Notes under the pieces: model-generated
The model's input: the letters and a program-made list of their open reading frames with translations, nothing else
What the model was told of the DNA's origin: nothing
Database searches by the model: none
Source of the DNA: a virus
IMG/VR virus record: IMGVR_UViG_3300017971_000207
Location: 1 to 64,000 of that record
Reading direction: 5' to 3' (one strand)
DNA: 64,000 bases
Translations under genes and position numbers: made by a program
Shown here: positions 29,329 to 46,000 of the stretch, piece after piece
How positions within the stretch are numbered: position 1 is the stretch's first letter
How the letters are laid out: every line of letters begins with the position of its first letter

Positions 29329-32300
29329 CTAGCCCTGAGAAGATCTAGTCAGCTCTTGAACGAGCCCTCTTAACTGCTTTAGCGAACGCCGTAGCACCTC
29401 ATCACCCTGAAGCAAACGATCCAGCTTATCTCCTGCCCGACGCTCTGCCGCCCGACCCCCACCCGCCAGAAGCTGCTGCTCCAACGAGGGGGTCCGAGAG
29501 CTGTGCAAACTACGGCCGGCTCGCCGGTGCTTACCGTTACCGTTAGAGGGGGCCTTAAGCGCCGGTTGATCGGCTCCCTCCATAGGAGCTTCCAACGCCG
29601 CCGCAGCGGCATCTGCCTTAGCGGACCACACGGTCTCGTCCCTAACGTCTGACTCGCGCTGCTGGTAGATGAGCTTGATAGCGTCGTCGCTGAGGTCGAA
29701 GACCTCCTTGTAGATCCACTCTAGCGAGACGAACTCCCTCATCCGCGAAGCGAGGTCTGCCTGAGCGTTCCGGACCTCCAGCTGCGCTAGCTCATAGATC
29801 GAGCTAGGCACCGTCATGTGCACCTCGTAGTCGTACGCTTGAGGGTCCATCCCCAGCGCCGCCATGTGCACCCGACAGACCTTCCCGAGCCCATTGCGCA
29901 GCTCGCGCTGGATACGAAGGACCGTCCGAGCAAACCTAACGTCCTCGCTGCTCAGCACCGCTCGGGCCGTGTTATCGTCCTGCTGCAGATACGCTTTCGG
30001 GATCTTGATGGCCGAGAACATCTTCCCCTGGAAGTACTCAATGTCATCCATATGCTGCCACTGAGGGCCCGAGAGAACATCGATCCGGGTCCCCTCCTGC
30101 CCCTGCCGCGTAGGCAAGAAGAAGTCCTCATCCTGGCTCAAAGCGTCAAAGCTGAAGTCCAGCTTGCCCGTGGTCGGATTGACAAAGCGGCGCTTCTTGT
30201 ACTGCTGACGGACCCGGTTCACATAGGCCAGCGCCTCGGCCGGCGGGAGGTTGCCTACGTCGACGTAAAAGGCGAAACGCTCCGGCGCCCGCGTAAGCCG
30301 GTACAGCAACGCCGAATCCTCCAGCAGCATAAGCCGCTTCCATATCCAGCGAGCCGCCTCCAACACAGAATTGTGCACCACCAACCCATCAGCAACGAAG
30401 TTGTGCTCTCTGTCAGCCACCTCGATGTCGTAGACGAGCTCTTCTCCATCGGGCTCGATACTGACCACCTCCTCGGACGCAAAGTCCCCAGCAGCAAGCG
30501 GTGCCTCACGAAAGTAGAGCTGGTAGGACGGCCCCGTGTTTATCTCACGCCCTCCAATAACTGGGCGCTCCTCCCGTTTACGAGATCGAATGTTACCAGA
30601 GGTCCACCCTAGCCCATCTACCAGATTCTTCAGGTCTCTGAGCAACGCCTCATTGCACAGCTCTATGTGAAAGTAGGGTTCCGGTCCTTGATGCGTCTCC
30701 CAGCCATCCGCATCGACGAATCCCCTCACGAACTCCGCGCGCAGCTCCTCCGGTAGCACAAACACCCACGAAGGCACACGCTTGTGGTGAGCCCCTCCAA
30801 CCCAACCGAAGCGCTGAAACACCTCAGCAAGAACGCGGCTGTGAACCGTACAGCTGCCTCCGGACCGAGAGGAACCAAGACCCATCTCGTCGAACATACG
30901 CTCGTAACGCGCATTGATGGCATCGTGCTCGCCAAGAGCAAAGCCGACCTCGTTATCCCTAACCCAGCCATCCCCCAACATGAACCCGAACAGTCGGCAG
31001 AACGAGGCATCTACAAAGTCCGACAGCCTAGGGATCTTGTGAGCACCGTCATAGGACCTAACCGTGTAGGACCCATCAAAAAGAGGGAGACCCAGCGATG
31101 AAAAAAGATCGCGCAACAACGACTTAGGTACAGAGGACCTACCTTCTAACAGATCCTCTAGAGTACCCCTAGACACCCCAACCGACGATGCCTTGGCGCG
31201 CAAACCCTCATCACGAGGTCCGTAGGCAGAACGCCGTACAAATGAACGCAGCGCCGCTGCCCCCCGAGGCGTCAGCGTTACCCGACACGTCTCAGTGTCC
31301 TCACTCAGGAGAATACCCAACGGCTGCGCCCCCGACAGGTAGGGCTGACGCGCTGCGGCAACAAGCCTATCTCCCGGCTTCACCTCGGACACGGGCAACC
31401 AAGCGTTCTGATTACCCTTCCGAGCCCCCTCCACCAACACCGGATGATTCGCAGTCAACCGCAACGACCTGTGCTTCGTCGAGAGACGGTACACCGGCTT
31501 AGACCCATTACACACGTGATCTAGAACCTTAGTAGTCCGCAGCATTCCAGCATGCCGCGAAAACACTCGATCTCCGGGAACGACATCTCGTATCTCGACT
31601 AGACCCCTTGTCGTCCAGACCCTGGATTCCCCTGTTAAACAGCTCCCATACACGCTGCGGCGATGCTTACCACGCAGACGGAAGTGCACCACCTCCCAAT
31701 CCTCTAGAGCAGCTAGCTGCTCATCCTGATTGCCCCCGTCCATCTGATGCTGCTTCGAATACTCCTGCGCAATCAGCGCGGTACGGGTGGCCAAGATCTG
31801 CCGAAAATCCTCGGGTGAGTTGTGAACAACCACCCCATCTGCCACGAAGTTATGAGCATCGTCCTCAACCTCCAGATCAAAAACCTCCTCGTCACCATGG
31901 TAGGACACCTCTAGCACCGTCTCAGCCACCAAAGGCTCCGCGAAGCGCTCGTCGGTAAAGGATACCGTATAGCAAGGCTGCTGCGTCTGAATGACCTTCC
32001 CTTTGACCACCGTGCCCGGCTCGCGCGTGCGTGAGGAGATGTTCCCACAGACGTAGCCCAAACCGTCGATCAAGTTCTTGAGGTCCCGCGCAAGGTCGTA
32101 GTTGGCTATCTCAAAGAAGTGCCGAAGCTTCCGACGGGGTTGCTTGTTGACCCACCCATCCGCGTCCAAGAACCCTCGCAAAAACGCCTCTCGGTGGTCT
32201 TCAGGCAGCGTGTAGACCCACGCGGGTACTCGCTTCTTATCAAACCCATCAATCCACCCTAAAGCCGGCAGCAGGCGCCAGAGCTGGACGGAGCACACAA

Positions 32301-33492
32301 CGGTCTCCTCGCCCACCACCGCACCATCGGACCGAACCTGCTTTACCCTAGGGTCGAGCCCCAAAGCTGCTAGAAGATTGTCGTACAGCTCGTTCTGCTC
32401 CGGGTATTCTCCACGAGCATAGGCCACTCGGCCCTCCGCCTCTGACTTCGACCGCCACCCATCTCCCAGCAGAAACCCTAGTAGACGGCAGAAGCCCGCT
32501 GACGGCCTCTCAGGGAGCTGTAGCTGACGCGGGGTGCCCTGGTCCCCCCAAGGCACCTCAAACGGGCTCTCGGCCCACAGGGACGACCACTCAGGAATCT
32601 CTCCCGCAGGCATCCGCGTACTCACAACAATCTTTGATGTCCGAGAGTAATCAATGTTCCGCTTCTTGCCGCGGTACCTAACAATCCGCAGGTCCTTCAC
32701 CCGAACCCACTCCCGCGACCCGTCGAGCCTCTGGGCCAACACCGGGTGATCTTCCGTCAGAAAGACCTCGCGGTGTCTTGTGCGGACCTTGTAAACCTTC
32801 TTGGTGCCGTTGACGTGAAGCTGTTTGACAGGCAGAAGAGCAGGCTTACCGTCGCTGCACCCCAGCACGGAGCCGCGCTCGAAGGCTTGAATCTCCGTCA
32901 GACCACGGTCGGTCCAAACGCGTGAGCCGTGTGCGAGGCAATACCCAAAACGCCCTTTGAAGTCCTGGATGAACCCGTAAAGCTCCCCACGCGGCCCCTC
33001 AATACGCCGCACAGTCGGAGGAGGTAGGTAGTTAAAACCCACCACGCCGTCAGCCGTCACCAGCAGCTCCTCGAAGTCATTACCGTACTTGATCAGCGTC
33101 CGAGCTATCTCCCATATCTCCTCATCCAAGCGCAGTTGCTTGTTGAGCAGATCGTTGAGCATGTTGGCGATGTTCTGGTTTGACGACGTGACCCACACCG
33201 TACGATTCAGCTGCGTGTCGGGCTGCGTGCTATCATCCGCAAAGACGTCGATGGCCGCCGACAGCTCAGGATAATCATCCATCTCCTCATAGTCGGCATA
33301 GCGAGACAGCAGATCTTGCTCCAGGCGCAGGTAGTCCGCGAGGACCTCGTAGCCATACGCTTGCAGAATGTCATAGCCGCTGCCGGGGTAGCCCGCCGCC
33401 GTGGCACCTTTCGCGAGCTGGACCGCAACCTGCTCCTTGTCCTTGGTCCACGCCTGGCGAATGCGATTGGCTATGTTGCTAAAGAACCCCAC
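29329..33492 (-). CDS. portal protein (T4 gp20-like) carrying two inteins
   Basis: A 1,387-residue precursor that splices to about 589 residues, close to T4 gp20 (524). The N-extein (GYEVLADYLRLEQDLLSRYADYEEMDDYPELSAAIDVFAD) and the C-extein (SVLEAARWIWKRLMLLEDSA, then LTRAPERFAFYVDVGNLPP, YFQGKMFSAIKIPKAYLQQD) are family-typical. Portals form the dodecameric ring through which DNA enters the head. The first intein separates RFGY from SPEDFRQ, the second separates VYGS from SVLEAAR. The gene begins at GTG 33492 with a modest AGGTG site. The C-terminal ~80 residues are helical and charged. Splicing of both inteins is needed for a working portal. Confidence 0.93.
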   Translation of the reverse strand: MGFFSNIANRIRQAWTKDKEQVAVQLAKGATAAGYPGSGYDILQAYGYEVLADYLRLEQDLLSRYADYEEMDDYPELSAAIDVFADDSTQPDTQLNRTVWVTSSNQNIANMLNDLLNKQLRLDEEIWEIARTLIKYGNDFEELLVTADGVVGFNYLPPPTVRRIEGPRGELYGFIQDFKGRFGYCLAHGSRVWTDRGLTEIQAFERGSVLGCSDGKPALLPVKQLHVNGTKKVYKVRTRHREVFLTEDHPVLAQRLDGSREWVRVKDLRIVRYRGKKRNIDYSRTSKIVVSTRMPAGEIPEWSSLWAESPFEVPWGDQGTPRQLQLPERPSAGFCRLLGFLLGDGWRSKSEAEGRVAYARGEYPEQNELYDNLLAALGLDPRVKQVRSDGAVVGEETVVCSVQLWRLLPALGWIDGFDKKRVPAWVYTLPEDHREAFLRGFLDADGWVNKQPRRKLRHFFEIANYDLARDLKNLIDGLGYVCGNISSRTREPGTVVKGKVIQTQQPCYTVSFTDERFAEPLVAETVLEVSYHGDEEVFDLEVEDDAHNFVADGVVVHNSPEDFRQILATRTALIAQEYSKQHQMDGGNQDEQLAALEDWEVVHFRLRGKHRRSVYGSCLTGESRVWTTRGLVEIRDVVPGDRVFSRHAGMLRTTKVLDHVCNGSKPVYRLSTKHRSLRLTANHPVLVEGARKGNQNAWLPVSEVKPGDRLVAAARQPYLSGAQPLGILLSEDTETCRVTLTPRGAAALRSFVRRSAYGPRDEGLRAKASSVGVSRGTLEDLLEGRSSVPKSLLRDLFSSLGLPLFDGSYTVRSYDGAHKIPRLSDFVDASFCRLFGFMLGDGWVRDNEVGFALGEHDAINARYERMFDEMGLGSSRSGGSCTVHSRVLAEVFQRFGWVGGAHHKRVPSWVFVLPEELRAEFVRGFVDADGWETHQGPEPYFHIELCNEALLRDLKNLVDGLGWTSGNIRSRKREERPVIGGREINTGPSYQLYFREAPLAAGDFASEEVVSIEPDGEELVYDIEVADREHNFVADGLVVHNSVLEAARWIWKRLMLLEDSALLYRLTRAPERFAFYVDVGNLPPAEALAYVNRVRQQYKKRRFVNPTTGKLDFSFDALSQDEDFFLPTRQGQEGTRIDVLSGPQWQHMDDIEYFQGKMFSAIKIPKAYLQQDDNTARAVLSSEDVRFARTVLRIQRELRNGLGKVCRVHMAALGMDPQAYDYEVHMTVPSSIYELAQLEVRNAQADLASRMREFVSLEWIYKEVFDLSDDAIKLIYQQRESDVRDETVWSAKADAAAAALEAPMEGADQPALKAPSNGNGKHRRAGRSLHSSRTPSLEQQLLAGGGRAAERRAGDKLDRLLQGDEVLRRSLKQLRGLVQELTRSSQG
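30370..31641 (-). mobile_element. portal intein B (LAGLIDADG)
   Basis: 424 residues, first Cys in CLTGESRVWTTRGLVEI (31641) and last residues VVHN before Ser (30370). TANHPVLVEG is splicing block B. RLFGFMLGDGW and FVRGFVDADGW are two LAGLIDADG motifs, so the homing function looks intact. DREHNFVADGLVVHN is blocks F and G. Between the N-terminal block and the first motif is an extra ~110-residue segment with a helix-turn-helix-like stretch (LRAKASSVGVSRGTLEDLLE). Insertion is between VYGS and SVLEAAR of the portal. Confidence 0.95.
31819..32940 (-). mobile_element. portal intein A (LAGLIDADG)
   Basis: 374 residues from CLAHGSRVWTDRGLTEI (32940) to VVVHN (31819) before Ser. TEDHPVLAQR is block B. 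RLLGFLLGDGW and FLRGFLDADGW are two LAGLIDADG motifs. DDAHNFVADGVVVHN is blocks F/G. The C-terminal half is closely similar to intein B of the same gene (RDLKNLIDGLGYVCGNI against RDLKNLVDGLGWTSGNI), so the two probably come from one lineage that spread to a second site. Confidence 0.95.
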
Positions 33493-33872: not shown

Positions 33873-34196
33873 CTACCCCACCCAGCCATCGCCTATCATC
33901 CGATCGACAACCGCCTGAGCCTTCGGCCCGATAGACAGCTTTAGCACCGCCTGGCGCGCGGCGCGCCAGTGCGCCGCAACGTGCTTGAGCAGCGTGTCAG
34001 GCTCCATAGGCACCGCACGGTGGAGCGTTAGCCGAAAGCCCTTGAAACGGCGGAGCTCGTCATTGGACAACCCCACTAGCTCGTCCGTCTCGTCCACGCC
34101 GTCAACCAACGTAATAAGGCTCTGAAGGTCCGCATGCTCGGGACCCGTCAGCGCCTCCCTCATCTCCGTAATAAGCCTCTGAAGCCTTGTAGACAC
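33873..34196 (-). CDS. small helical protein between terminase and portal
   Basis: A 107-residue protein. The start GTG 34196 follows a clear AGGAGG. Helices are predicted throughout (TRLQRLITEMREALTG, ADLQSLITLVDGVDETDELVGLSNDELRRFKGF, HWRAARQAVLKLS). The phrase VGLSNDELRRFKGF resembles VELSNAELQTVIEFDG in the protein at 28314. No family is recognised. It lies between the terminase and portal genes, where packaging accessory or portal-associated proteins are often found. Confidence 0.6.
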   Translation of the reverse strand: MSTRLQRLITEMREALTGPEHADLQSLITLVDGVDETDELVGLSNDELRRFKGFRLTLHRAVPMEPDTLLKHVAAHWRAARQAVLKLSIGPKAQAVVDRMIGDGWVG

Positions 34197-34210
34197 CTTA
34201 ACCTCCTGAA

Positions 34211-34224
34211 CGACCGCGTGGTCG
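34211..34224. repeat. near-copy of the 14-base palindrome (CGACCGCGTGGTCG)
   Basis: One base differs from CGACCACGTGGTCG seen at 5865-5880, 23119-23132 and 39312-39325. It lies between the TerL stop and the AGGAGG of the next gene, where a bound protein or a hairpin could affect expression of that gene. Confidence 0.4.
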
Positions 34225-34231
34225 CATCCTA

Positions 34232-37200
34232 TCAGAAAACGCCGTCTGAGCCCCAGCCTGAGCCACCACGGCCCCATCCAGGCGAGCCCATACCGCCACC
34301 CAAGATCGGTGGGAGCACGTTCGGCTGCTGCCCGACCGGAAGCTGGGCCGCCGGTGGATAAAAGCGACCACTGTCGACGTGCCGGCCCGATAGACGACGC
34401 GCCGCGGCTGCGTGCTGCTGCTCCTCCATCCAGACGTCGGCCGAGGCCATCGCGCCGCGGAGCACAGGGAGCGGCTGCGTGGCCTGATGCTGCGACAGAG
34501 TGTAGATACAGCCCGCCAGGGCATCGCTCGTATCCTTAGAGCCCTTCTTGGGATGATCGACGCGCTGGCGCTTTGCGTCCAGCTCCAGCTCCCGCAGCTC
34601 TTTGAACACCGTAGGGTAACGATAGATGTTAATCCGATCCTCATAAAAAGCCGTCTTGAGCGCCTCGTACGGGTCCATCTTCGTGTCGACCGAGAGATGC
34701 TCCGCCGCATACCCCTTCTGCTTCAGCTGCTGTAACGCGTCGATCGACTGCCATGTATCCTGAGTAACCAGGGTGATAATGAAACCGTGAGCACTAAGCT
34801 CATAGACGAGGCGCCGCAGGTCGCCGAGCACAATCTCGTCCCCCACTGGAGGGACGATGCGCAGAATAACATCGACAAAGTAGATCGGCTGCCGCTCCTG
34901 GAATACCTCCCCGTCCTCCGCACGGCGCAGTACGTCCTTCCAGCCGCTGATATGAGCCATACAGAAGCCCACCGAATCCTTACGATAGGCAGGGTCGATG
35001 TGGATGTGCCGCGCCGCCTTGGGGTTGACAATCGGCGTCAGGGACTCGTGAGTGTAGCCCGAGAAGTCCCGCATCTGCGTCTTACGTACGAGGTTTTCCC
35101 AGATGAACGTCCCCGGCTTGGAGGGGTCGTATACCTCCACGCTGAAGGGATGCTGCCGCGTGTCGTCAAAGACAAGCTTCTCGCGACGCTGAACAAAGGG
35201 GCTAACTGCAACGGTCGACACCCCCGCGATATCTCTTATGCTGCCTTCAAGGTCACGCTCGAAGTCCGACTTGAAGTCGACGGGGACCGCTACCAACGTG
35301 ACGCCGTCAGGCACCCCGTCCCGCTCCAACCTGCTCTCCTCCCCCTCGTCCAGGATACGCGAGGGTATCTGCTCATTACCGCACAGCACATAGAAGCGCT
35401 CGGGGCTAAAGTGGTCCGCGGGCTTTGAATCCCACAGCGCGTAATCTCGGACCATCACCCGCGGGTCCTCCTTAGCTTCCCGAATGCGCCGCGCCGTGAA
35501 GTCATCCGCGGTCTTCTTTGACGAAACGAGGAAGATCTTCCCGAGCACACGGCCGCCCCGGCCGAAGCGGGATTTCATGCGGCGCTTGAGACCGTTGTAG
35601 ATCATCTCCGCGTGGTCCACAGCCCCCATCCGTGGGTCTATCTTGCGCCCCTTGCTAAGGAAGTTGCTGTTGTGAACGAGCACCCCGTCCCCTATGAAGA
35701 CCTCACATCCTGGGACGCAAATGTCGTAGGTAGGGAGCATTCCCAGCCCTCTCTTGGACACGACGCGGGCCACAGTAAACGCTCGTCCCATACCTCGTAT
35801 ACCCACCCCTGACGAGCGCAATACGCCCGTACCGCTCCCATCTTCGCCTTCTCCTTGGGGTTGGATATGTAGCCTCTGGGCTTCACCTCGACGACCAGCG
35901 TGCGGCCGTCGCTCAGCTCGACCACGTAATCCGGCACAGTGTTGCGTCGCTTGTCCTCCCAAAGGTACGGCACCGACAGCTTCTCGTAACGGTAAGCGGC
36001 TACATCCGAACGCCCCTCCAATATCTCCACCGCTCGAAGCTCCCACAGCGAACGAAAGCCCAGCAAACCCGCCTTCGTCGTCTCGACACGGCCTAGATAC
36101 CTCCAATCTCCCTTCTTCAGGCGCCAGACGCTTGACGCCGATATCTTGGCCCGTGTCTCCTCCGAATGCGTGTAGTCCCGAGTGCGGTTGTATTCGATCA
36201 AACGCCGCTTGAACGCTTCCGTATGCATAGGTTTGCCCCGCCGCGCCTCTGACATTTTGCGTCGCGCCTCCGCCGAGGGGCGCCTCCCAGTCGCAGCCTC
36301 TCGCAACCGCTGCTTGTGCTCCTCTGACAGAGGCTTGCCGTAGTTGGGGTTGTCCTCCCCCACCATTGGCGGCGGTGGTCGCAAGTTGCTGTCTCCAGCG
36401 GCCCAACGCTCCTTCATCGCCCGCGACACTTTGGAACGCGCCTCGTCCGACATCACCTTCCCTCGGTTTCCCTCTCCTATCTTGCGCTTGGTCTCCTCCG
36501 TGTGCTTCCAACCAGTCCTCTTCCTCCGCGCCTCCGCCATCTTGCGCTTTGCTTCCGCCGTATGCTTGCGCCCATGAAACGGGTTCTTTGAGCCCGTCCG
36601 CTGCTTGGCTATCTCCGATAAGCGTCTCTTTTGATCCTCCGAAAGCTTCTGACCTTTCCTCGGCATATGTGACAACCTCCTCACCCGGAAGTATATCACG
36701 CATTAACTTGAAGCCTAGAACCCCGTCACGGCCTAGCACAGCCACCGGATGCCTCCACGACGCGCGCAGACGTTGCCCCCCGTCAAGCTCTACCTCAAAG
36801 CACTCCTGGACCGTCGAACGCTTGATATACGCATCAGCCTCCACTGGGCAGCCCCCCTCTACCGACAGCAACCTAAAGGGCAACCGCAGCGGCCCACAAG
36901 ACTCATAAAGAGCCTCCGCAGTGGCCACCCGACCCCCTGGAAGCGACACCAAGGTATCAGCGCACACGCACTCATCCACTAAGGCCCCGAGGGTGTTCAA
37001 ACCCAATGCGGAGGTGTCCGTGGTGGCCCGAGCTGCCAGCCACACGTTGTTGGGGAACCTGAACTCCTTCCGCGTAGCCTTGTACGGGAAGTGCTCCGCA
37101 AAGTAAGGGCTAGCTTTGAGCTTCGTCGCAATGTTCTCAAAGGCGACCTTCATCGCCAGGCCCTCATTGACGCTCAAGCACACGATCGAGATGTCGGTGT

Positions 37201-37642
37201 CCGGCGCCAGCCCAAGAGAGGCGTGAGGGTCGCGGAGGCAGGATAGCTCGTAGAGCATACGGCAGACTGCTACGGACGCTGAAAAGGTCTTTCCCCCTCC
37301 GATCGCCCCCGTAAAGATGACCTCTTCGTAGTCGCCCCCCTCAAAGAGCTCCTCCATGTCCGAGAGCCATCTGGGATACAGCACGCTGCAGGTGTTGCCG
37401 AGGTAGTAGTCATCCTTGACGAAGGTCGCGATATCCACGGGAGGATGCTTGAACTCGGCCTCGCTCACGATATCGATTAGGGGGCGGTCGCCCTCGCTAC
37501 GCTCCTCCTCGACCTCCGTCAACAGCACCATCAAGGCTGCGCGCTCATCCGGGCTTAGCGCTGCTAGCTCCTGCCGTAGGTCGGCCTCGTCCTCCTCAGC
37601 CGTACGCTTGCTGAAGATCCGACCACCGCGGTTTACGAGCAC
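34232..37642 (-). CDS. large terminase subunit with intein
   Basis: A 1,136-residue precursor; without its 434-residue intein it is about 702 residues. TerL is the DNA packaging motor. Walker A is GAIGGGKT near residue 120. Walker B is TLGALVDE, and the intein is inserted directly after this Glu. The C-extein continues SNFLSKGRKIDPRMG, then a nuclease domain (HIHIDPAYRKDSVGFCMAH, HLSVDTKMDPYEALKTAFYE, KDTSDALAGCIYTL) with the acidic residues of the RNase H-like terminase nuclease. The start is GTG 37642 after GGAGG, overlapping TerS by 10 bases. The C-terminal ~60 residues are Gly/Pro-rich. A second nuclease gene lies inside the intein in another frame. Confidence 0.95.
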   Translation of the reverse strand: MLVNRGGRIFSKRTAEEDEADLRQELAALSPDERAALMVLLTEVEEERSEGDRPLIDIVSEAEFKHPPVDIATFVKDDYYLGNTCSVLYPRWLSDMEELFEGGDYEEVIFTGAIGGGKTFSASVAVCRMLYELSCLRDPHASLGLAPDTDISIVCLSVNEGLAMKVAFENIATKLKASPYFAEHFPYKATRKEFRFPNNVWLAARATTDTSALGLNTLGALVDECVCADTLVSLPGGRVATAEALYESCGPLRLPFRLLSVEGGCPVEADAYIKRSTVQECFEVELDGGQRLRASWRHPVAVLGRDGVLGFKLMRDILPGEEVVTYAEERSEAFGGSKETLIGDSQAADGLKEPVSWAQAYGGSKAQDGGGAEEEDWLEAHGGDQAQDRRGKPREGDVGRGAFQSVAGDEGALGRWRQQLATTAANGGGGQPQLRQASVRGAQAAVARGCDWEAPLGGGATQNVRGAAGQTYAYGSVQAAFDRIQPHSGLHAFGGDTGQDIGVKRLAPEEGRLEVSRPCRDDEGGFAGLSFAVGASSGGDIGGAFGCSRLPLREAVGAVPLGGQATQHCAGLRGRAERRPHAGRRGEAQRLHIQPQGEGEDGSGTGVLRSSGVGIRGMGRAFTVARVVSKRGLGMLPTYDICVPGCEVFIGDGVLVHNSNFLSKGRKIDPRMGAVDHAEMIYNGLKRRMKSRFGRGGRVLGKIFLVSSKKTADDFTARRIREAKEDPRVMVRDYALWDSKPADHFSPERFYVLCGNEQIPSRILDEGEESRLERDGVPDGVTLVAVPVDFKSDFERDLEGSIRDIAGVSTVAVSPFVQRREKLVFDDTRQHPFSVEVYDPSKPGTFIWENLVRKTQMRDFSGYTHESLTPIVNPKAARHIHIDPAYRKDSVGFCMAHISGWKDVLRRAEDGEVFQERQPIYFVDVILRIVPPVGDEIVLGDLRRLVYELSAHGFIITLVTQDTWQSIDALQQLKQKGYAAEHLSVDTKMDPYEALKTAFYEDRINIYRYPTVFKELRELELDAKRQRVDHPKKGSKDTSDALAGCIYTLSQHQATQPLPVLRGAMASADVWMEEQQHAAAARRLSGRHVDSGRFYPPAAQLPVGQQPNVLPPILGGGMGSPGWGRGGSGWGSDGVF
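35669..36970 (-). mobile_element. TerL intein with an out-of-frame nuclease gene inside
   Basis: 434 residues from CVCADTLVSLPGGRVATAEA (36970) to IGDGVLVHN (35669) before Ser. N-terminal splicing region: RLRASWRHPVAVL is block B. C-terminal region: TYDICVPGCEVFIGDGVLVHN is blocks F/G. Between them the intein frame reads a ~330-residue Gly/Ala/Gln/Glu-rich stretch with no recognisable fold (for example AHGGDQAQDRRGKPREGD), because this DNA is read in a different frame by the nuclease gene 35692-36666. The intein frame nevertheless has no stop. The insertion point is the Walker B Glu of the ATPase, a highly conserved site. Confidence 0.9.
35692..36666 (-). CDS. NUMOD3/PD-(D/E)XK homing endonuclease nested out of frame in the TerL intein
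   Basis: A 324-residue protein, MPRKGQKLSEDQKRRLSEIA..., with a strong GAGGAGG site nine bases before ATG 36666. The N-terminal half has repeated NUMOD3-type units (GSKNPFHGRKHTAEAKRKMA, GRRPSAEARRKMSEARRGKP, YTHSEETRAKISAS). The C-terminal ~120 residues carry a PD-(D/E)XK core: FRSLWELRAVEIL, then TVPDYVVELSDGRTLVVEVK. Its coding DNA lies entirely inside the TerL intein and overlaps the intein's block F region near the end. So one DNA stretch encodes both proteins in two frames. Likely it provides the mobility of an intein that has lost its own endonuclease domain. Confidence 0.9.
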   Translation of the reverse strand: MPRKGQKLSEDQKRRLSEIAKQRTGSKNPFHGRKHTAEAKRKMAEARRKRTGWKHTEETKRKIGEGNRGKVMSDEARSKVSRAMKERWAAGDSNLRPPPPMVGEDNPNYGKPLSEEHKQRLREAATGRRPSAEARRKMSEARRGKPMHTEAFKRRLIEYNRTRDYTHSEETRAKISASSVWRLKKGDWRYLGRVETTKAGLLGFRSLWELRAVEILEGRSDVAAYRYEKLSVPYLWEDKRRNTVPDYVVELSDGRTLVVEVKPRGYISNPKEKAKMGAVRAYCARQGWVYEVWDERLLWPASCPREGWECSLPTTFASQDVRSS

Positions 37643-38346
37643 GACGCCTCCGAAGGCTCCGAGTCCACAACCTCGGCCTTGGCCTCAATAACCTCGGGCT
37701 CATCCGCTACACGGGCGAGCTTGCTCGCAAGCCCCAACAGCTTGCGGCGCTTCTCCGGGTTGGCGAGCACCTTAGCTACCTTGGGATCCCCTAGCCGGTC
37801 CTCCACGTGGGCAGTGATGTGGGCCTCGACATCAATCTTCCCCAGCTGCCGCTCATTGAGCCCCAGGTCCATCTTAAGCTGCGCGATGCTTGTCAGGATC
37901 TCGCGGGCCGCCCGTATCTCCTGCGTCATCGACGGGAATAGCTTGTTGATGGTCTTCTCGTTCTCGTACTCAATGCCTATCCGCTCCATCTGGACGGCAT
38001 AAAGCAACCAAAGCTCGTCGAGCTCATCTAGCCCCTCCGCGACACGCAGCGCTGCCTGCTCAAAGCAGAGCGGCATACGCCCCTTGATGAGCTGCGCAGA
38101 GGGAATCGTCGTCCGATAGCGACGCAGCATCGACACCAACCCCTCGCGGCTGGCGTCGGTGTATTCGTGGCGCTCCTCCTGAATGAACTCCGCTATCTTC
38201 CGGTCGCTCCACCCATCAAGGAACAGCTGATGCATCTCATCAAAGCACTTGAGCGCACGGAGCTTCGGGAAGTTGGTAGCGCGCCTGGTCGGCTTAATCT
38301 GAAAAGCCGCTGGCCGACGCTTGCGGCCGTTCTTCTTAGCAGTCAC
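37633..38346 (-). CDS. small terminase subunit
   Basis: A 237-residue protein directly upstream of TerL and overlapping it by 10 bases. The N-terminal part is basic and contains a helix-turn-helix-like segment (MHQLFLDGWSDRKIAEFIQEE) that would bind the packaging start site. The middle has long helices for ring assembly (LDELDELWLLYAVQMERIGI, MTQEIRAAREILTSIAQLKMD). The C-terminus is charged (KRRKLLGLASKLARV ... EVIEAKAEVV). TerS recognises viral DNA and loads TerL. The call rests on position, HTH and helical layout. Confidence 0.8.
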   Translation of the reverse strand: MTAKKNGRKRRPAAFQIKPTRRATNFPKLRALKCFDEMHQLFLDGWSDRKIAEFIQEERHEYTDASREGLVSMLRRYRTTIPSAQLIKGRMPLCFEQAALRVAEGLDELDELWLLYAVQMERIGIEYENEKTINKLFPSMTQEIRAAREILTSIAQLKMDLGLNERQLGKIDVEAHITAHVEDRLGDPKVAKVLANPEKRRKLLGLASKLARVADEPEVIEAKAEVVDSEPSEASCS

Positions 38347-38400
38347 GCCTCCAGCTTATCACGTTCAAACGCGATAGCCTAACCGCGCGAGATCGTTAGG

Positions 38401-38430
38401 TGCCTCGGGCGGGAGTCGAACCCACACCCG
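38401..38430 (-). tRNA. 3' half of a broken tRNA
   Basis: Minus-strand GTGGG-TTCGACT-CCCGC T-arm followed by CCGAGGC and A73. The 3' acceptor strand CCGAGGC pairs perfectly with GCCTCGG at 39026-39020, 590 bases upstream, where a tRNA 5' half ends in the anticodon loop. The anticodon 3' strand and variable loop expected before the T-arm are not recognisable here. A complete tRNA-Leu and an HNH gene lie between the halves. Confidence 0.7.
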
Positions 38431-38439
38431 ACCAATCAG

Positions 38440-38524
38440 TGCCCAAGCTGGGAATCGAACCCAGACGCCTCTACGAGACAACGGGTTTTAAACCCGTCCC
38501 GACTACCAATTACGGCACTTGGGC
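38440..38524 (-). tRNA. tRNA-Leu (anticodon TAA)
   Basis: Acceptor GCCCAAG/CTTGGGC plus A73. Anticodon stem ACGGG/CCCGT around loop TTTAAAA gives anticodon TAA (reads UUA/UUG). There is a long variable arm (TGTCTCGTAGAGGCG), proper for class II leucine tRNAs, and a T-arm CTGGG-TTCGATT-CCCAG. The last codons and stop of the HNH gene overlap its 5' end by 15 bases. Confidence 0.92.
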
Positions 38525-38953
38525 TAGAAACTGCGCGCGAGGACGAGCCCCGCAAGAATAAACCTGCCTTCTCCTACTCCACTTACCAGAGCAAGACTTG
38601 CTACAAAATGGCCCCGCCTTACCCTGCTTCCTATTCGAGCGGACCACACGTGCCGGTTTAGTTCCTTGTCCCCCACACTCAGGACAAGCAAAAACCACAA
38701 GCTCCTCGGACCTCGCATGCTCTCGCGCGTGGTCCCCACGAGAGATAACCTCCAGATTACCCAACGCATTGTTGGCTCTGTTTCCATCCCTGTGATGAAC
38801 ACACTCCCAACTCTCCAGCTTACGGCCCAGATGCGCCTCCATAACCTCCCGATGCTCTAGAACACTACGCTTAGTACCATCCGACAATCTCTCGACCCTC
38901 ATTCGGTACCCCTTCATGTTATACCAACCAGACCTCCACGCAACTTCAACCAT
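38510..38953 (-). CDS. HNH endonuclease gene inside the tRNA cluster
   Basis: A 147-residue protein. HNH core is LEHREVMEAHLGRKLESWE then CVHHRDGNRANNALGNLEVI (HNH_3 type), followed by a Cys-rich zinc region (FACPECGGQG ... FCSKSCSGKWSRR). It lies between the 5' half of one tRNA and an intact tRNA-Leu, and its stop codon falls in the D-loop of that tRNA-Leu. It has probably inserted at a tRNA. No strong ribosome site is seen. Confidence 0.88.
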   Translation of the reverse strand: MVEVAWRSGWYNMKGYRMRVERLSDGTKRSVLEHREVMEAHLGRKLESWECVHHRDGNRANNALGNLEVISRGDHAREHARSEELVVFACPECGGQGTKPARVVRSNRKQGKAGPFCSKSCSGKWSRRRQVYSCGARPRAQFLAQVP

Positions 38954-38989
38954 AACGATGGTTTAACACTGTCTCTACCCACAGACCAC

Positions 38990-39026
38990 TAGAACCTGCC
39001 GCCTCTACCAGCTGGGCTACCGAGGC
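38990..39026 (-). tRNA. 5' half of a broken tRNA
   Basis: Minus-strand GCCTCGG, TA, D-arm (GCCCAGCTGGTAGAGGC), G26, GCAGG and loop TTCTA, which would put CTA in anticodon position if the frame of the loop is right. The expected 3' anticodon strand CCTGC does not follow; the sequence runs on toward the HNH gene. Its acceptor strand matches the 3' half at 38401-38430. Confidence 0.7.
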
Positions 39027-39033
39027 TCACAGG

Positions 39034-39108
39034 TGCCCGAGAGAGGATTCGAACCTCCAACCTCGTCGTCCTAAGCGACGCGCCTCTACCTGGTTGGGCT
39101 ACTCGGGC
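39034..39108 (-). tRNA. tRNA with anticodon TAG (Leu), short variable loop
   Basis: Acceptor GCCCGAG/CTCGGGC plus A73. Anticodon stem CGTCG/CGACG around loop CTTAGGA gives TAG, which reads CUA/CUG Leu. T-arm GGAGG-TTCGAAT-CCTCT. The variable loop is only AGGTT, whereas bacterial leucine tRNAs normally have a long arm. Purine G37 fits a leucine UAG tRNA. Confidence 0.9.
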
Positions 39109-39111
39109 TAG

Positions 39112-39186
39112 TGGTCAGAGGGGGATTCGAACCCCCAACCTTCGGCCCCTCAAGCCGACGCCTCTGCCTAGTTGGGCTACCTGACC
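39112..39186 (-). tRNA. tRNA with anticodon GAG (Leu), short variable loop
   Basis: Acceptor GGTCAGG/CTCTGACC region plus A73. Anticodon stem TCGGC/GCCGA around loop TTGAGGG gives GAG, reading CUC/CUU Leu. T-arm GGGGG-TTCGAAT-CCCCC. Again the variable loop is short (AGGTT), like its neighbour three bases away and unlike the class II tRNA-Leu at 38440. Confidence 0.9.
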
Positions 39187-39967: not shown

Positions 39968-40717
39968 TCACCACCCCAGCAACGTGCGCGCCGCAACCGC
40001 CTCACCGATACGGCGATCCACCTCCCTCAGCGGCTCGTCCAGCTCCTCCCACGGGACCAACCAATGCGACTTGGGGGTGGGCTGCTCCTTGGCCCACGCA
40101 ACCCACGTCTCTCGGACCAACCGACCCAGCTCCTCGCGGTCGCCCAAGCCCGAGATGATGTTCCGGGTAAGCAGCCCTCTGGATAGCAGCCTGATATCCT
40201 TCTCCGGTGGCGCTGTGTGGTCCCCGTTATCCCAGAAGACGATGACGTCCCCAGATAGAAAATGCTTCGTCAGATTCTCCCCCACCATCAAGGCTACCCC
40301 CCGCCGCCCGTCATGCCCAACAACCACCGCCTGCGACAGCTCCCCCGAAAGAAGCTCCTCCAGCTGCGCCCCGTTGACGAGACGCCCGGACTCCGCCCGC
40401 GCCTCACCCTGCAAGCGCTCCCGCGTCCGCTGGACAAGCTCCATAGCCTCCTGCGGGGATAGGTCCCCAACGTCCACGTACTGCACACACGGAGCAGCCC
40501 GTAAAGGCGCGTCTTCGCCCGAGGACGGCTCCTCCGCCGCTTTCTCCAGCTCAAAGCGGTGCCAGTCCCTAAGCCGGCACAAGGCCGCCAGAGGCGAATC
40601 TGCGTCTGGACGCTCCGGCCTCAGCTCCCCCAGATACCCCACATCGCCGACCCGCTCCACCTCCTCCAGCAAATCCAACGCCGCTCTTATGAAACCTCGC
40701 ACAACCTTGCTAGCCAT
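39968..40717 (-). CDS. hypothetical protein
   Basis: A 249-residue protein that I do not recognise. It is helical at both ends (GFIRAALDLLEEVERVGDVG; EPLREVDRRIGEAVAARTLLG), with an alpha/beta middle (GHDGRRGVALMVGENLTKHF, DVIVFWDNGDHTAPPEKDIR). No Cys cluster or known catalytic motif is visible. It is the longest gene of the small-gene block between the tRNAs and polymerase and may be an early accessory protein. Confidence 0.6.
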   Translation of the reverse strand: MASKVVRGFIRAALDLLEEVERVGDVGYLGELRPERPDADSPLAALCRLRDWHRFELEKAAEEPSSGEDAPLRAAPCVQYVDVGDLSPQEAMELVQRTRERLQGEARAESGRLVNGAQLEELLSGELSQAVVVGHDGRRGVALMVGENLTKHFLSGDVIVFWDNGDHTAPPEKDIRLLSRGLLTRNIISGLGDREELGRLVRETWVAWAKEQPTPKSHWLVPWEELDEPLREVDRRIGEAVAARTLLGW

Positions 40718-41164: not shown

Positions 41165-41354
41165 CTCCACCTCCGTCCTCAGATGCACACAAAGGGCACC
41201 CTGGTGAGCCGCAGCACTCTCGCACCGCAAGACTCTCGGGGTCCTCCTCGTACCAGCTGTCACCACAATCCAAGCAGCGCCACTCAAAGCGCAGCGGGGC
41301 AACGTACTGCACGCCGCCGGTCTTCTCTCGACGCTTGTGCTCACAACTCACCAC
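41157..41354 (-). CDS. small Cys-rich protein
   Basis: A 65-residue protein starting at GTG 41354 (or 41351), overlapping the stop of the terminase paralogue. CEHKRR, CLDCGDSW, and CCGSPGCPLC give seven or more Cys, so one or two zinc sites are likely. The middle FEWRCLDCGDSWYEED is a typical zinc-ribbon knuckle. The function is unknown. Confidence 0.6.
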   Translation of the reverse strand: MVSCEHKRREKTGGVQYVAPLRFEWRCLDCGDSWYEEDPESLAVRECCGSPGCPLCASEDGGGDG

Positions 41355-42262
41355 ACCACTCCAGCAAGGTCCCGAAGGCTCCCCTCCAGGTCCCGCTCAA
41401 ACTCGCCCCTAAGCTCAGCAGGAACATCCACCCAACCAGCTCGAACGTCGTCCACCCTCAACGAGAGCACCTCGTCCTCCTTCACGATCTTAGGGGGCTC
41501 TTCCCCAGACCCCCGTCGCACAAAGAAGCGCGCTGAGCCAAAGCGCTCCAGCTGAGAATCCCACAAGGCATAGTCCCGGACAAGCACAGCAGGATCATCT
41601 ACAACCTCGCGCAGACGCTGAGTCAGAAAGGCGCCCCCATCCCGCTTTGACGAGGTAAGAAACACCTTCCCGCGACCGGCCGCTCCAAAGCGCGACCTAA
41701 CACGGCGGCGCAGACCCAAGTAGACCTTTCTAAGATCCTTGGCCGTAAACTTCGAGGTGACGGGAGCCTCCACTAGCACTCCCAACAAGTTGCGCCCTAG
41801 ACTAGTCCCCGAGGACAGCGCGCCGGCCGTTACACAGATGTCCGAGGGGAATCGCAGCTCGCCTGGTCGCTCCTCGTGAGGAAACGTCTCACAGAAGTAG
41901 GGGCTGCTCCGGAGCATGCGCGCAACACCCCCGAGGATGACATCAGACGCAAACGCCGGGCTAACGCTAAGACACCCCAGCGAAACGACTGACCCCGACC
42001 CAAGCCCGAGAGACGCCTGCGGGTCTCGGAGGCGCGACAGCTCGTAGAGCATACGGCAAAGAGCCGCCGACGCGGCAAACGTCTTCCCCGAGCCCAGTCC
42101 CCCCGTGAATATCACCTCGTCGAACGGCCCGCGGAAAACCTCCTGGAGGTCCGACAGCCACTGAGGATACAAACCCACACCGCCTAAGTAACGCTCGTCC
42201 CTAAAGAACGTTTCAACGTCCACCAGCTCCTGCTTGTAGGTACCTTCGCTGTCAGCCCTCAC
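41348..42262 (-). CDS. truncated TerL-like ATPase paralogue
   Basis: A 304-residue protein clearly related to the ATPase part of TerL: VETFFRDERYLGGVGLYPQWLSDL, DEVIFTGGLGSGKTFAASAALCRMLYELSRLRDPQASLGLG, KVFLTSSKRDGG, VLVRDYALWDSQLERF, ELRGEFERDLEGSLRDLAGV all align with TerL residues ~75-400. Walker A GGLGSGKT is intact. The Walker B region reads LLGVLVEAPVT where TerL has TLGALVDE-SNF, so the Asp-Glu pair is altered. No nuclease domain, no intein. It starts at GTG 42262 after a GGAGGAGG site with GTGA overlap. It may be a regulator or decoy of packaging, or an ATPase with a new job. Confidence 0.88.
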   Translation of the reverse strand: MRADSEGTYKQELVDVETFFRDERYLGGVGLYPQWLSDLQEVFRGPFDEVIFTGGLGSGKTFAASAALCRMLYELSRLRDPQASLGLGSGSVVSLGCLSVSPAFASDVILGGVARMLRSSPYFCETFPHEERPGELRFPSDICVTAGALSSGTSLGRNLLGVLVEAPVTSKFTAKDLRKVYLGLRRRVRSRFGAAGRGKVFLTSSKRDGGAFLTQRLREVVDDPAVLVRDYALWDSQLERFGSARFFVRRGSGEEPPKIVKEDEVLSLRVDDVRAGWVDVPAELRGEFERDLEGSLRDLAGVVW

Positions 42263-43076: not shown

Positions 43077-46000
43077 TCAATGAGCTGCCCATGACCTGCC
43101 AGTATCTCCCTCAGCGACGCACGGAACTGATCGCATCATCGGCTGAATGCCCTCAATCATCGCCTGCTCCACCTCCAGCTTCACCTGCGCCACGAGCTCC
43201 TCGTCATCGTCACACTCGACCACGATCTCGTCGTGCACCATGTGAACCATCTTGGCCCGAGAGCCGAAGCGCTTCAGGCGGAAGTACACGTTGCGTAGGG
43301 AGCGCTTGAGGCCGTCGGCCCCCGAGCCTTGGATCGGGGTGTTCCCTGTTATGAACACATGCCCACTACGCCGAGCCACGAAGAAGGTATTAGGAACAAT
43401 TGGGCACCATATCCCGAAAACACCCTTGAGCTGCCTCACATGCTTCTTAAGCACCTGCGCCTTGTCGCGGTTGAGCACAGTAACCTGCCAGTGCTCCGTC
43501 CCCTTGGGAACATTCTTAAGCTTGGGCGACCTCGGCCTGTACTTCCGCATATCGCGCTTCTTGATGGAGCCCACGTAACCGCAAAGCGTGCAGAGAATCT
43601 GGAAAACTTCTGCTCCCTCTCGGGAACGGCTGACAAAGGCCGTCTTATCGCTACGCCACCCATCCCCACCGATCATGGTTTGGAGCAGTAGACGACACTG
43701 CCGAGCCGTAAGCAGATTAAGAAGGTCCATGGTCAAAACACGGCCGGGGCAGAGCTGCACCAAAACCTCATTCAGAGGGTGCCGAAAGTACCACATACGC
43801 CCCCCCGCTTCCCCATTCTCGCTCTTCGAGTACCTCATCCCCAATCTACCCAGAAGCGCCTCAATACAAGCCACCTTATAAGGGTTAGCCCGCACACTCT
43901 GATAGAGCTTCAAGGACACCCCACTAGGCTTAGGACCACGCTTTCCGGGACGGTCGTAGACCCTACGGGTCTTCTGAATACCGCCGTCCGTCAACCACCA
44001 ACCAGCAAGCTCCACAAAGTCGTCCGACAGGAGGCTACTCTCGGGCCCTTCGTACCGACCGGTGCGATGGATGCGATCGTCACCATGACGCGAGAGTGTT
44101 GATGTCCGTCGCTCCATGTCCTTTCGGGCGCCCTTGTTGTAGACAAGCCAACGATGGTCCGCTGTGGACACCGCATGAAACGACTTTGACTTGAACTCCG
44201 TAAGCTCCCTCTCCACAGGCTCAAACACCCTTAAGTCCGTAGGAGCCTGCCACTCTAAGGCACCTGTTTTTGGGTTCTTGGTCAGAATCTCGTCGCCCAG
44301 AGCAAGATCCGGCCCTCTGACCCACCCCCGGCGTGTGAGCGCCTCCGTTTCAAAGTCTAGGCAGTTGAAGTACTCATTGCGCGCCGTCTCGGGGTCGAGG
44401 TAGCGCCGACGGCCCCACAGGGTGCGGGCATAGGGGACACGCTTCGCATCACGCAGAGAGCGCTCCTGCCACGCGCGCACGCGCGGGTAGCCGTCAAAGT
44501 AACGCTTGATGAACTTGTTGGCCTGCGCCTCTGTGATCGTCACCCCGTAGTTAGCCTGGGAGTACACGACCAGCTTCGCAGCTCCTAGCCCGTAGATGAG
44601 CCCGAAGTTGACCGGCTTCGCCGCCTGGCGCTGCGCCTTGGTCACCTCATCGTAGGGAACTCCCGCGACGATGCTAGCCGTCCGACGGTGCGCATCCTCC
44701 CCCCGAAGGTAGATACCAATAAGCACAGGGTCCTGCGTCACCTCCGCAGCAAGACGGAGCTCTATCTGTGAGTTATGACTAACAAAGCCGTCGCTGATAT
44801 AGGTCACGGGACCAGGGACCGACAGGTCATAGACATCCTCCTCACCATCAAGCTCTATCGAGTCCACCGCATCGAAGAACGTCCCGTCCTCCACCGTCCG
44901 GCTCAACCCCAGCTCCCGATAAACCTCCGGGTGCTCCTCGCGCAGCTTCACAGCCACCAGAAAGCTGACAGACCGCCCCAGAGACGCCGTGTTGTTGAGC
45001 AATCTCCGTACCTCCCCCTCCAGCCTCAGCTCCCTAACACGCTCCTGCATATTAGGCACAGAGCCCACCGTCGGAGATACGGGACCACGCCCTATCAAGC
45101 CCGACAGCTTCCCCTGCTTGCGCCACGAGAAGAACCCCACAGTCTCCACAAACCTAGAGAGGAACAACCGGGGGACACGCAGCGACCAGCCCACATAACG
45201 ACGCCCCTCCCCATGCCGCTCCTTGCGCCGAGTAGACAACACCCCCAGAGCCAGGAGCAGCTGTTGGACCTCAACAATAAGACGCCTGCGGGAGGAGACC
45301 AGCTTCACGTGGTCCCCCCCAGCACTACCGTCCGCCTCAAAGAGGCCCCGCAAAAAGGCGCCCACCACACGCGGCGGAGAGGACCAAAGAAACCCAGGCA
45401 CAGCCCCCTTTGAAACGCCTAAAGCTACAAACCAGTCGCGAAGCTGCTTGCGATTGACGTGCGTCTCAATGACGCCACGATACTCCTTGACATGTAGATC
45501 ACGAAGCCCGAACAGCTCCTCACACAGCCCCAGCAGACGCTCATGGACCGCCGGGTCCTTAGCGTTTACCACCCACCGAAGATAGTTGGACCCTAGATTC
45601 CCGTCCCCCACAAAGTAACCAACAAAGAAAGCCAAGTCCTCAGAGACCTCCCCAGGAACACGAACCTCCTTGCTGTTGACGCCACCAGAAGGCTTAGGCG
45701 GCAGCACAACCTTCGACGAAGCCTCCGACAAACCCCGGCCGGATTGCACAGCCACGTAGTCCGACGGCCCTATCTCATGTAGACGCTTCCAAACATAGGC
45801 TCCCTCACGGTCAAGGACTCTAATACGGTGAAGAGACGTAGCACGCAGCTCGTAGCCAAGCTTCGTCCGAATCCGATAGACAGACTGGACCCCTTTAGAG
45901 ATACGGTCGCTCACTCGATGCTTCGTCCCGTCCTCCACCAAGACCTCAGCACCTACGGCAACATTCTCCACCGGCACCAAACCCTCCGATGTCGCCACGC

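Follow-up and report, generated by a model that had tools for sequence, protein, structure and literature searches.

We consider it very likely that the virus sequence analysed here contains, in its large terminase (TerL) gene, a mobile intein whose homing endonuclease is encoded as a separate gene, overprinted on the intein linker with its reading frame shifted by one base; that the intein splices, that the nuclease is made and cuts DNA, and that the element homes are inferences. The analysed window comprises bases 1-64000 of a 145,433-base virus record; its own copy of the locus is referred to as W, and L-numbers denote loci from other viral contigs. According to the mechanism that we propose, a TerL precursor would be translated through a probably unstructured spacer of about 290 residues, whose flanking Hint halves would fold together and splice TerL. 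Other ribosomes would initiate inside the intein at a Shine-Dalgarno (SD) site and produce the free nuclease, which in turn would cut intein-free TerL genes in the Walker B region or close to it; the subsequent repair would copy in the intein together with the nuclease. The features of the window that are involved are collected in Table 1.

Table 1. Positions in the window of the TerL and DNA polymerase (PolA) inteins and of the endonucleases encoded within them
Feature	Position	Strand	Remarks
TerL (large terminase) host ORF	34232..37642	-	1136 aa, GTG start, stop-free through the intein
TerL intein, Cys1 to Asn434	35669..36970	-	TerL residues Cys225 (nt 36970) to Asn658 (nt 35669); between Walker B 'LVDE' and Ser+1
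N-terminal splicing half (Cys1, block B SWRHP)	36660..36970	-	alignment; TIGR01445
C-terminal splicing half, ending VLVHN	35669..35791	-	alignment; TIGR01443
Hidden nuclease, 324 aa, own ATG	35692..36666	-	+1 frame relative to TerL; NUMOD3 repeats, then TnsA-like PD-(D/E)XK
Shine-Dalgarno GAGGAGG for the nuclease	36676..36682	-	inside intein codons for PGEEVV
Doubly coding tail	35692..35778	-	nuclease residues 297-324 overlap the intein C-terminal half
DNA polymerase A ORF, 1624 aa	43077..47951	-	three inteins by motif
First PolA intein (GRYS / ... / SRSPNLQQ), 278 aa	46116..46949	-	no in-frame endonuclease found
Hidden HNH endonuclease, 184 aa	46154..46708	-	+1 frame in PolA intein; HNH_3 E=2.2e-12

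An intein in the terminase gene

A class 1 intein begins with Cys or Ser, has a His in block B, ends in His-Asn followed by Cys, Ser or Thr, and contains a Hint domain. The insert in TerL lies directly after the Asp-Glu of Walker B, and intein-free TerL relatives align across its join. It possesses Cys1, the His-Pro of block B and a C-terminal Val-His-Asn followed by Ser+1, and the same signals recur in all seven lineages with this layout: C1 and H74 are invariant in W, L007, L002 and L073, C1 and H78 are invariant in L078-L080, and VHN followed by S or T is present in each of the seven. The requirement for a Hint domain, as judged by profile, is likewise met, for L078-L080 only through their halves (hhalign).

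W, L007 and L002 each match the Pfam family Intein_splicing (PF14890; scanned singly, best E=3.9e-8) as well as NCBIfam intein models (C-terminal best 2e-5, N-terminal best 1.5e-4), and the L073 intein matches PF14890 with E=3.4e-6; the W intein remains under the curated Pfam and NCBIfam cut-offs (Pfam, 18.3 of 35.8 bits). A profile of the W, L007 and L002 inteins retrieved 30 PDB sequences at E<=10 (best 2.6e-5), including the named inteins Mxe GyrA, DnaB, Pho RadA, Pab PolC and Spl DnaX, and most of the other matches carry what we take to be the host-protein names of solved inteins. On its own, the L078 intein matched no intein model, and those of L079 and L080 reached only E ~0.07. Profiles of the N- and C-terminal halves of L078-L080 match the corresponding halves of W, L007 and L002 (hhalign 94.7 and 94.4%, E=6e-8 and 8.5e-8) and also PDB inteins (best 7.6e-4 and 0.003).

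The two splicing halves account for about 103 and 41 of the 434 intein residues. In the original prediction they flanked some 330 residues without apparent meaning, and a stop-free, spacer-like stretch is indeed found between them; its length has to be corrected to about 290 residues, since the 324 codons are those of the nuclease, the tail of which overlaps the C-terminal half. AlphaFold models of the intein were poor (mean pLDDT 34, three sequences) and left residues 100-400 without predicted secondary structure, which we do not count as proof of disorder. The TerL intein meets neither the criterion of a fused-endonuclease intein, namely an endonuclease in frame between the halves, nor that of a fractured gene, in which the host gene is divided into two ORFs, as TerL is open throughout.

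It is extremely unlikely that the insert is instead a self-splicing intron, removed at the RNA level, with merely coincidental intein-like motifs. Group I introns typically contain endonuclease ORFs that have starts of their own, which speaks for this possibility, but an Rfam scan detected no intron family at E<=1 in 34000-38500, nor in 45900-47200 around the polymerase intein discussed below, whereas RF00028 was matched at four of five intron loci in phage polymerase genes. In addition, an intron would not need selection for an open TerL frame, and each of the seven lineages has a match to an intein model or profile, if only via its halves.

A nuclease in the second reading frame

A complete NUMOD3/PD-(D/E)XK endonuclease had been predicted in another frame of the intein DNA, and this reading is supported by domain and structure searches. 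The ORF matches NUMOD3 (E=1e-21) and Tn7_TnsA-like_N (E=5.8e-9), and its structural model (mean pLDDT 63) matches TnsA in the PDB (1t0f, Foldseek E=9.4e-7). The signature of the PD-(D/E)XK fold, E...D...ExK, is provided by E209, D246, E260 and K262, which are invariant in the seven lineages. As had also been anticipated, the nuclease frame runs into the C-terminal blocks of the intein, and its stop codon lies within their DNA; in this region the nuclease model falls below pLDDT 50 (residues 300-324). Among prokaryotic genomes, 23 loci match the nuclease, none of them past residue 185, so that the TnsA-like domain is never reached. Among cultured phages, 9 records match the window nuclease and 43 the L079 nuclease, in neither case with any match over 80% of its length.

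Viral contigs were scanned for relatives, one scan yielding the best 80 of 259 matches, and at least six further TerL lineages with the same layout were recovered (L007, L002, L073, L078, L079 and L080; L074 equals L073 but for 1 base). All seven share the TerL site, the order of the elements and the +1 frame of the nuclease, and nuclease identities between lineages range from 28% to 75%. The original prediction would have been refuted by relatives with a normal fused endonuclease, or by a sequencing error or a shift of one base joining the nuclease to the intein frame. The nuclease is fused in none of the seven carriers, and no single frame shift fuses it to both intein halves. Among the matches listed, 128 plus-strand matches are nuclease-like; 19 of these lie inside a long open frame and represent the seven lineages and their copies, and the more distant 109 do not and are outside the check for fusion.

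Two compensating frame shifts, introduced by assembly or sequencing error, could in principle mask a normal intein with a fused endonuclease. The record that yields L001, L004 and L006 is 100% identical to the window over 15,408 bp and is not counted as independent support, a point in favour of such an error. Nevertheless, the explanation is regarded as excluded, because the site, the order and the relative frame recur in six further lineages, all diverged and found on other contigs, and because the stop avoidance described in the following section is a signal of selection that errors do not produce.

Stop avoidance and conservation in the two frames

For each nuclease, the synonymous codons were shuffled 10,000 times and the stops arising in the intein frame were counted (Table 2). 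The absence of stops from the intein frame, initially noted for the window, extends to all seven lineages, and shuffled sequences as low as the observed ones are virtually lacking. The third frame, which served as the control, is not depleted in general; its oddest values are those of L078, whose count is high (matched or undercut by 9,879 of 10,000 shuffles), and L080, whose count is low (539 of 10,000 when the tail is included and 225 when it is left out). With a null based on the codons of contig genes, which was calculated for three lineages, P(open) was 0/5000 for W and L002 and 0.023 for L007. In four nuclease cores, a synonymous third-base T before AA, AG or GA was used in 0/64, 0/45, 0/56 and 0/50 instances, and a synonymous T elsewhere in the same cores in 36/137, 21/135, 23/104 and 19/117. 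As far as can be judged from the sequences, on which this conclusion rests, stops in the intein frame are thus demonstrably avoided by selection where synonymous choices exist.

Table 2. Stop codons in the intein frame and in the third (control) frame after synonymous shuffling of the nuclease
Lineage	Intein-frame stops	Shuffled mean	Shuffles as low as observed (of 10,000)	Third-frame stops	Third-frame shuffled mean
W	0	11.6	0	11	11.2
L007	0	6.2	1	6	7.1
L002	0	9.7	0	4	4.5
L073	0	7.4	1	8	6.2
L078	0	9.7	0	11	7.8
L079	0	10.7	0	16	14.9
L080	0	9.4	0	10	13.8

Conservation was assessed for W, L007 and L002 by comparison with 60 simulations per pair, in which the nuclease was rearranged synonymously and free of stops. 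In the middle of the insert, intein-frame identity amounts to 0.29-0.32, compared with 0.295-0.304 simulated from nuclease coding, and the middle peptide of the intein frame therefore behaves as a spacer of no particular sequence. In the tail, i.e., 26 columns over the C-terminal half of the intein, the identity is 0.73-0.81 vs. 0.31-0.38 in the simulations. As the intein-frame tail is conserved and the nuclease tail is modelled with low confidence, the latter is probably carried along by the intein.

A check for constraint at synonymous sites across relatives, which had been suggested at the outset, gave a corresponding picture: the intein frame is kept open, and codon position 3 of the nuclease varies most, both among W, L007 and L002 and between L079 and L080. 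The latter two differ at nuclease codon positions 1, 2 and 3 in 79, 73 and 138 of 444 cases, and in 112 of 444 residues of the nuclease vs. 171 of 440 residues of the intein frame. A stop-free frame, a neutral middle and a conserved C-terminal block together indicate a translatable, sequence-neutral spacer, with the nuclease as the second gene. Both tests fit the initial proposal of a nuclease made separately while the intein frame is kept open, although splicing and nuclease production remain inferences.

In a survey of nested ORFs, which covered the collected loci and the window, 117 distinct nested pairs were obtained, 26 of them with P<=0.01; 8 of these 26 are nucleases, and 18 look by eye like chance ORFs in real genes. 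The shuffle test is symmetric, and domain matches and conservation are therefore needed to tell which of two frames is the gene. The possibility that the nuclease frame is a relic or a chance ORF, and that only TerL and its intein matter, draws support from these 18 cases, which passed the test without being nuclease-like, and from the long chance ORFs that DNA of high G+C content yields. For the TerL insert it is nonetheless very unlikely, given two Pfam domains, catalytic residues that are invariant across the whole range of identities and variation that is concentrated at nuclease codon position 3.

Translation start of the nuclease

The predicted GAGGAGG was found 9 nt before the ATG of the nuclease, within codons that are also read as intein. 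W, L007, L002 and L073 all have a purine-rich SD stretch where the intein frame encodes G(E/D/Q)EVV, and the start codons ATG, ATG, TTG and ATG, respectively, follow at equal distance; only 0.4%, 0.1%, 2.8% and 6.0% of random 22-mers pair as strongly with the anti-SD. In L078, L079 and L080 the SD is weak, with 14%, 20% and 20% of random 22-mers as strong.

Alternatively, ribosomes could undergo a programmed shift to the +1 frame within the N-terminal half and yield an intein-nuclease fusion besides the full TerL, in which case the internal start would be unused. This would agree with the nuclease frame being +1 in all seven lineages and open for 9-67 codons before the start, and with the weak SD in three of the seven; in W, L073 and L078, however, this open stretch comprises only 9-12 codons, and in four lineages SD and start codon are found at the same place. 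We regard frameshifting as unlikely and retain internal initiation as the preferred reading. A promoter for the nuclease was considered and rejected: an extended -10-like string lies upstream of the SD (about 36690-36698, minus strand; by eye, TGATATACT in W and L002 and TGGTATTAT in L007), but a consensus scan gave 0 promoter-like sites in 35500-37700.

Distribution, mobility and control inteins

The +1 residue is Ser or Thr in 7/7 carriers vs. 8/25 distinct empty sites (Fisher p=0.002, uncorrected for relatedness). Together with the open TerL frame, this residue bears only indirectly on splicing, which is inferred. The distribution of the intein was mapped on a TerL extein tree of 32 sequences with columns 196-230 masked; L023, L027 and L041 were left out (coverage <50%), and six near-copies were removed. 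A grouping of the carriers L002, L007 and L073 was discarded, as it was due to about 22 columns of intein letters and dissolved after masking. The carriers need five gains or losses on the masked tree (three without masking), two of which are forced by well-supported branches, and since 41 of 500 label shuffles need as few changes, they are hardly clustered on this tree. The site is empty in L008, the sister of W and the nearest TerL found (66% identical; support 100/100). As regards cleavage of the intein-free allele, which is inferred, only this patchy distribution was observed.

Twelve in-frame insertions at other TerL sites of the relatives, one of them in a near-copy, served as controls. 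The longest open stretches in their other frames measure 63-176 aa, vs. 313-352 aa in three hidden cases that were measured likewise. All ten of the twelve that were scanned match an intein splicing domain (one under the Pfam cut-off), and in-frame endonuclease domains were found as LAGLIDADG_3 in five and as HNH_3 in four (two HNH_3 under the cut-off). The TerL gene of L002 (2768-8137) has three complete inteins and, where the contig ends, what by eye looks like the beginning of a fourth, and combines an in-frame LAGLIDADG, an out-of-frame TnsA-like and an in-frame HNH endonuclease.

The window holds further features of this kind or in this neighbourhood. A T4-like portal gene at 29329-33492 (minus strand) shows matches to inteins and, in frame, to LAGLIDADG, and three tRNA-Leu genes (anticodons taa, tag and gag) are clustered at 38439-39186 (minus strand), upstream of TerL and its neighbour ORF. 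A 304-aa TerL paralogue without intein, 49% identical in two blocks, lies at 41348-42262 (minus strand); it terminates shortly behind the ATPase half, and at the intein site it reads, by eye, LVEAP, without the usual Walker B Asp-Glu. The ORF beside it (39968-40717, minus strand) contains a short portal-like stretch (24 aa, E=2e-4) and may represent what is left of a second packaging module.

A further hidden endonuclease, in the polymerase gene

The first of the PolA inteins, which matches Intein_splicing (E=7.7e-8, under the cut-off) and TIGR01445 (26.1 bits, cut-off 24.5), likewise contains an endonuclease out of frame. Its frame has 0 stops vs. a shuffled mean of 8.0 (P=1e-4), and the third frame has 11 vs. 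10.1. The start of the HNH ORF has no notable SD, 32% of random 22-mers being as strong. Among the 20 records behind the loci, the full HNH protein is found only in the record identical to the window, with partial matches in six others.

The HNH protein matches 45 phage records, 33 of them over >=80%, and in the five records that were opened the HNH lies in or between pieces of DNA polymerase genes. The group I intron matches at four of these five loci have E-values of 2e-6 to 5e-3, under the Rfam gathering score. One of the five is the HNH ORF of the Pf-WMP3 intron (36% over 148 aa, E=3e-20). The phage introns, whose borders were judged from reading frames, interrupt the same polymerase motif, 4 (Pf-WMP3, PhAPEC7) to 6 codons downstream of the intein site. 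That a relative of an intron-homing endonuclease for this motif is also encoded in another frame of an intein suggests overprinting of inteins by intron-type ORFs.

Several other candidates were rejected. Overlaps of the type 'DNA polymerase / HNH', as in PhAPEC7, Pf-WMP3 and Providencia PS3, do not represent hidden frames, as the genes are joined from two pieces around an HNH ORF, and for H9 (head closure), H6, H66 and H68 the annotation indicates separate or slightly overlapping genes.

Origin and implications

Most likely, such an arrangement would originate from an endonuclease ORF, either free-standing or of the intron type, that landed in an intein together with its own start signal. The frame of landing would be indifferent for the nuclease, and selection would then have removed the stops from the TerL frame. 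With moderate confidence, we extend this to the proposal that hidden-frame inteins are a third and recurrent intein architecture beside fused and split ones, in which inteins are repeatedly overprinted, in another frame, by endonuclease ORFs that have their own starts and some of which also occur in group I introns. In this view, the intein G(D/E)EVV can supply the SD, and the host frame becomes a spacer kept free of stops by selection. If so, two nuclease families in two genes of one phage would link intron and intein mobility via a shared pool of nucleases, and a route for intron nucleases into inteins would be offered.

This departs from the usual picture, in which the endonuclease of an intein is fused in frame, absent, or located between split halves. 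The dose of the nuclease would be independent of TerL translation, and the insert would constitute a long natural dual-coded region with a division of labour, one frame providing a protein and the other mere openness. Gene callers that avoid long overlaps on the same strand may miss such nucleases, from which we infer that the respective inteins may be filed as lacking an endonuclease.

Comparison with known systems

In the literature, no report of an intein with an out-of-frame endonuclease was found, most subscription papers and all bioRxiv preprints being outside this search. The fractured genes of Dassa and colleagues (2009) reportedly consist of split inteins with a free-standing endonuclease between the halves, the host gene being in two and the product formed by trans-splicing. 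The hidden TerL nuclease would similarly be made separately from the intein halves, production being inferred, whereas the TerL host frame is unbroken and would splice in cis. With TnsA of Tn7, the TerL nuclease has the fold of the nuclease domain in common; unlike TnsA, it has NUMOD3 repeats and sits in an intein.

Phage TerL inteins with a fused LAGLIDADG endonuclease are also located in the TerL ATPase domain; there the endonuclease is in frame, whereas the nuclease here is a separate gene one base over (PMC5050341). I-PfoP3I, the HNH protein of Pf-WMP3, is a nicking homing endonuclease encoded in a group I intron of a cyanophage DNA polymerase gene, and in polymerase genes without the intron it introduces a nick 4 nt ahead of the insertion site (PMC3428280). 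It is a relative of the PolA-intein HNH, with its intron in the same polymerase motif, about 4 codons downstream; its setting is an RNA-level intron, whereas the PolA HNH is out of frame in an intein.

The closest precedent found for an out-of-frame intein nuclease is the ShiLan domain (2025) together with the Pacc40 gp60 insertion, which have an out-of-frame HNH endonuclease in phage DNA methylase genes (PMC11855218). Its authors report that neither an intron nor intein splicing motifs are present, expect the insert to remain in the protein, see no ribosome-binding site and take the patchy distribution as homing; one further genome note describes an insertion of this kind (PMC12613952). The TerL case resembles ShiLan in its stop-free insert, its endonuclease in another frame and its patchy distribution. 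It differs in that splicing halves flank the nuclease, the 'no splicing domain' criterion of ShiLan not being met, in that the host is TerL, in that the nuclease is of the TnsA type and is preceded by an SD in four lineages or more, and in that seven lineages could be compared.
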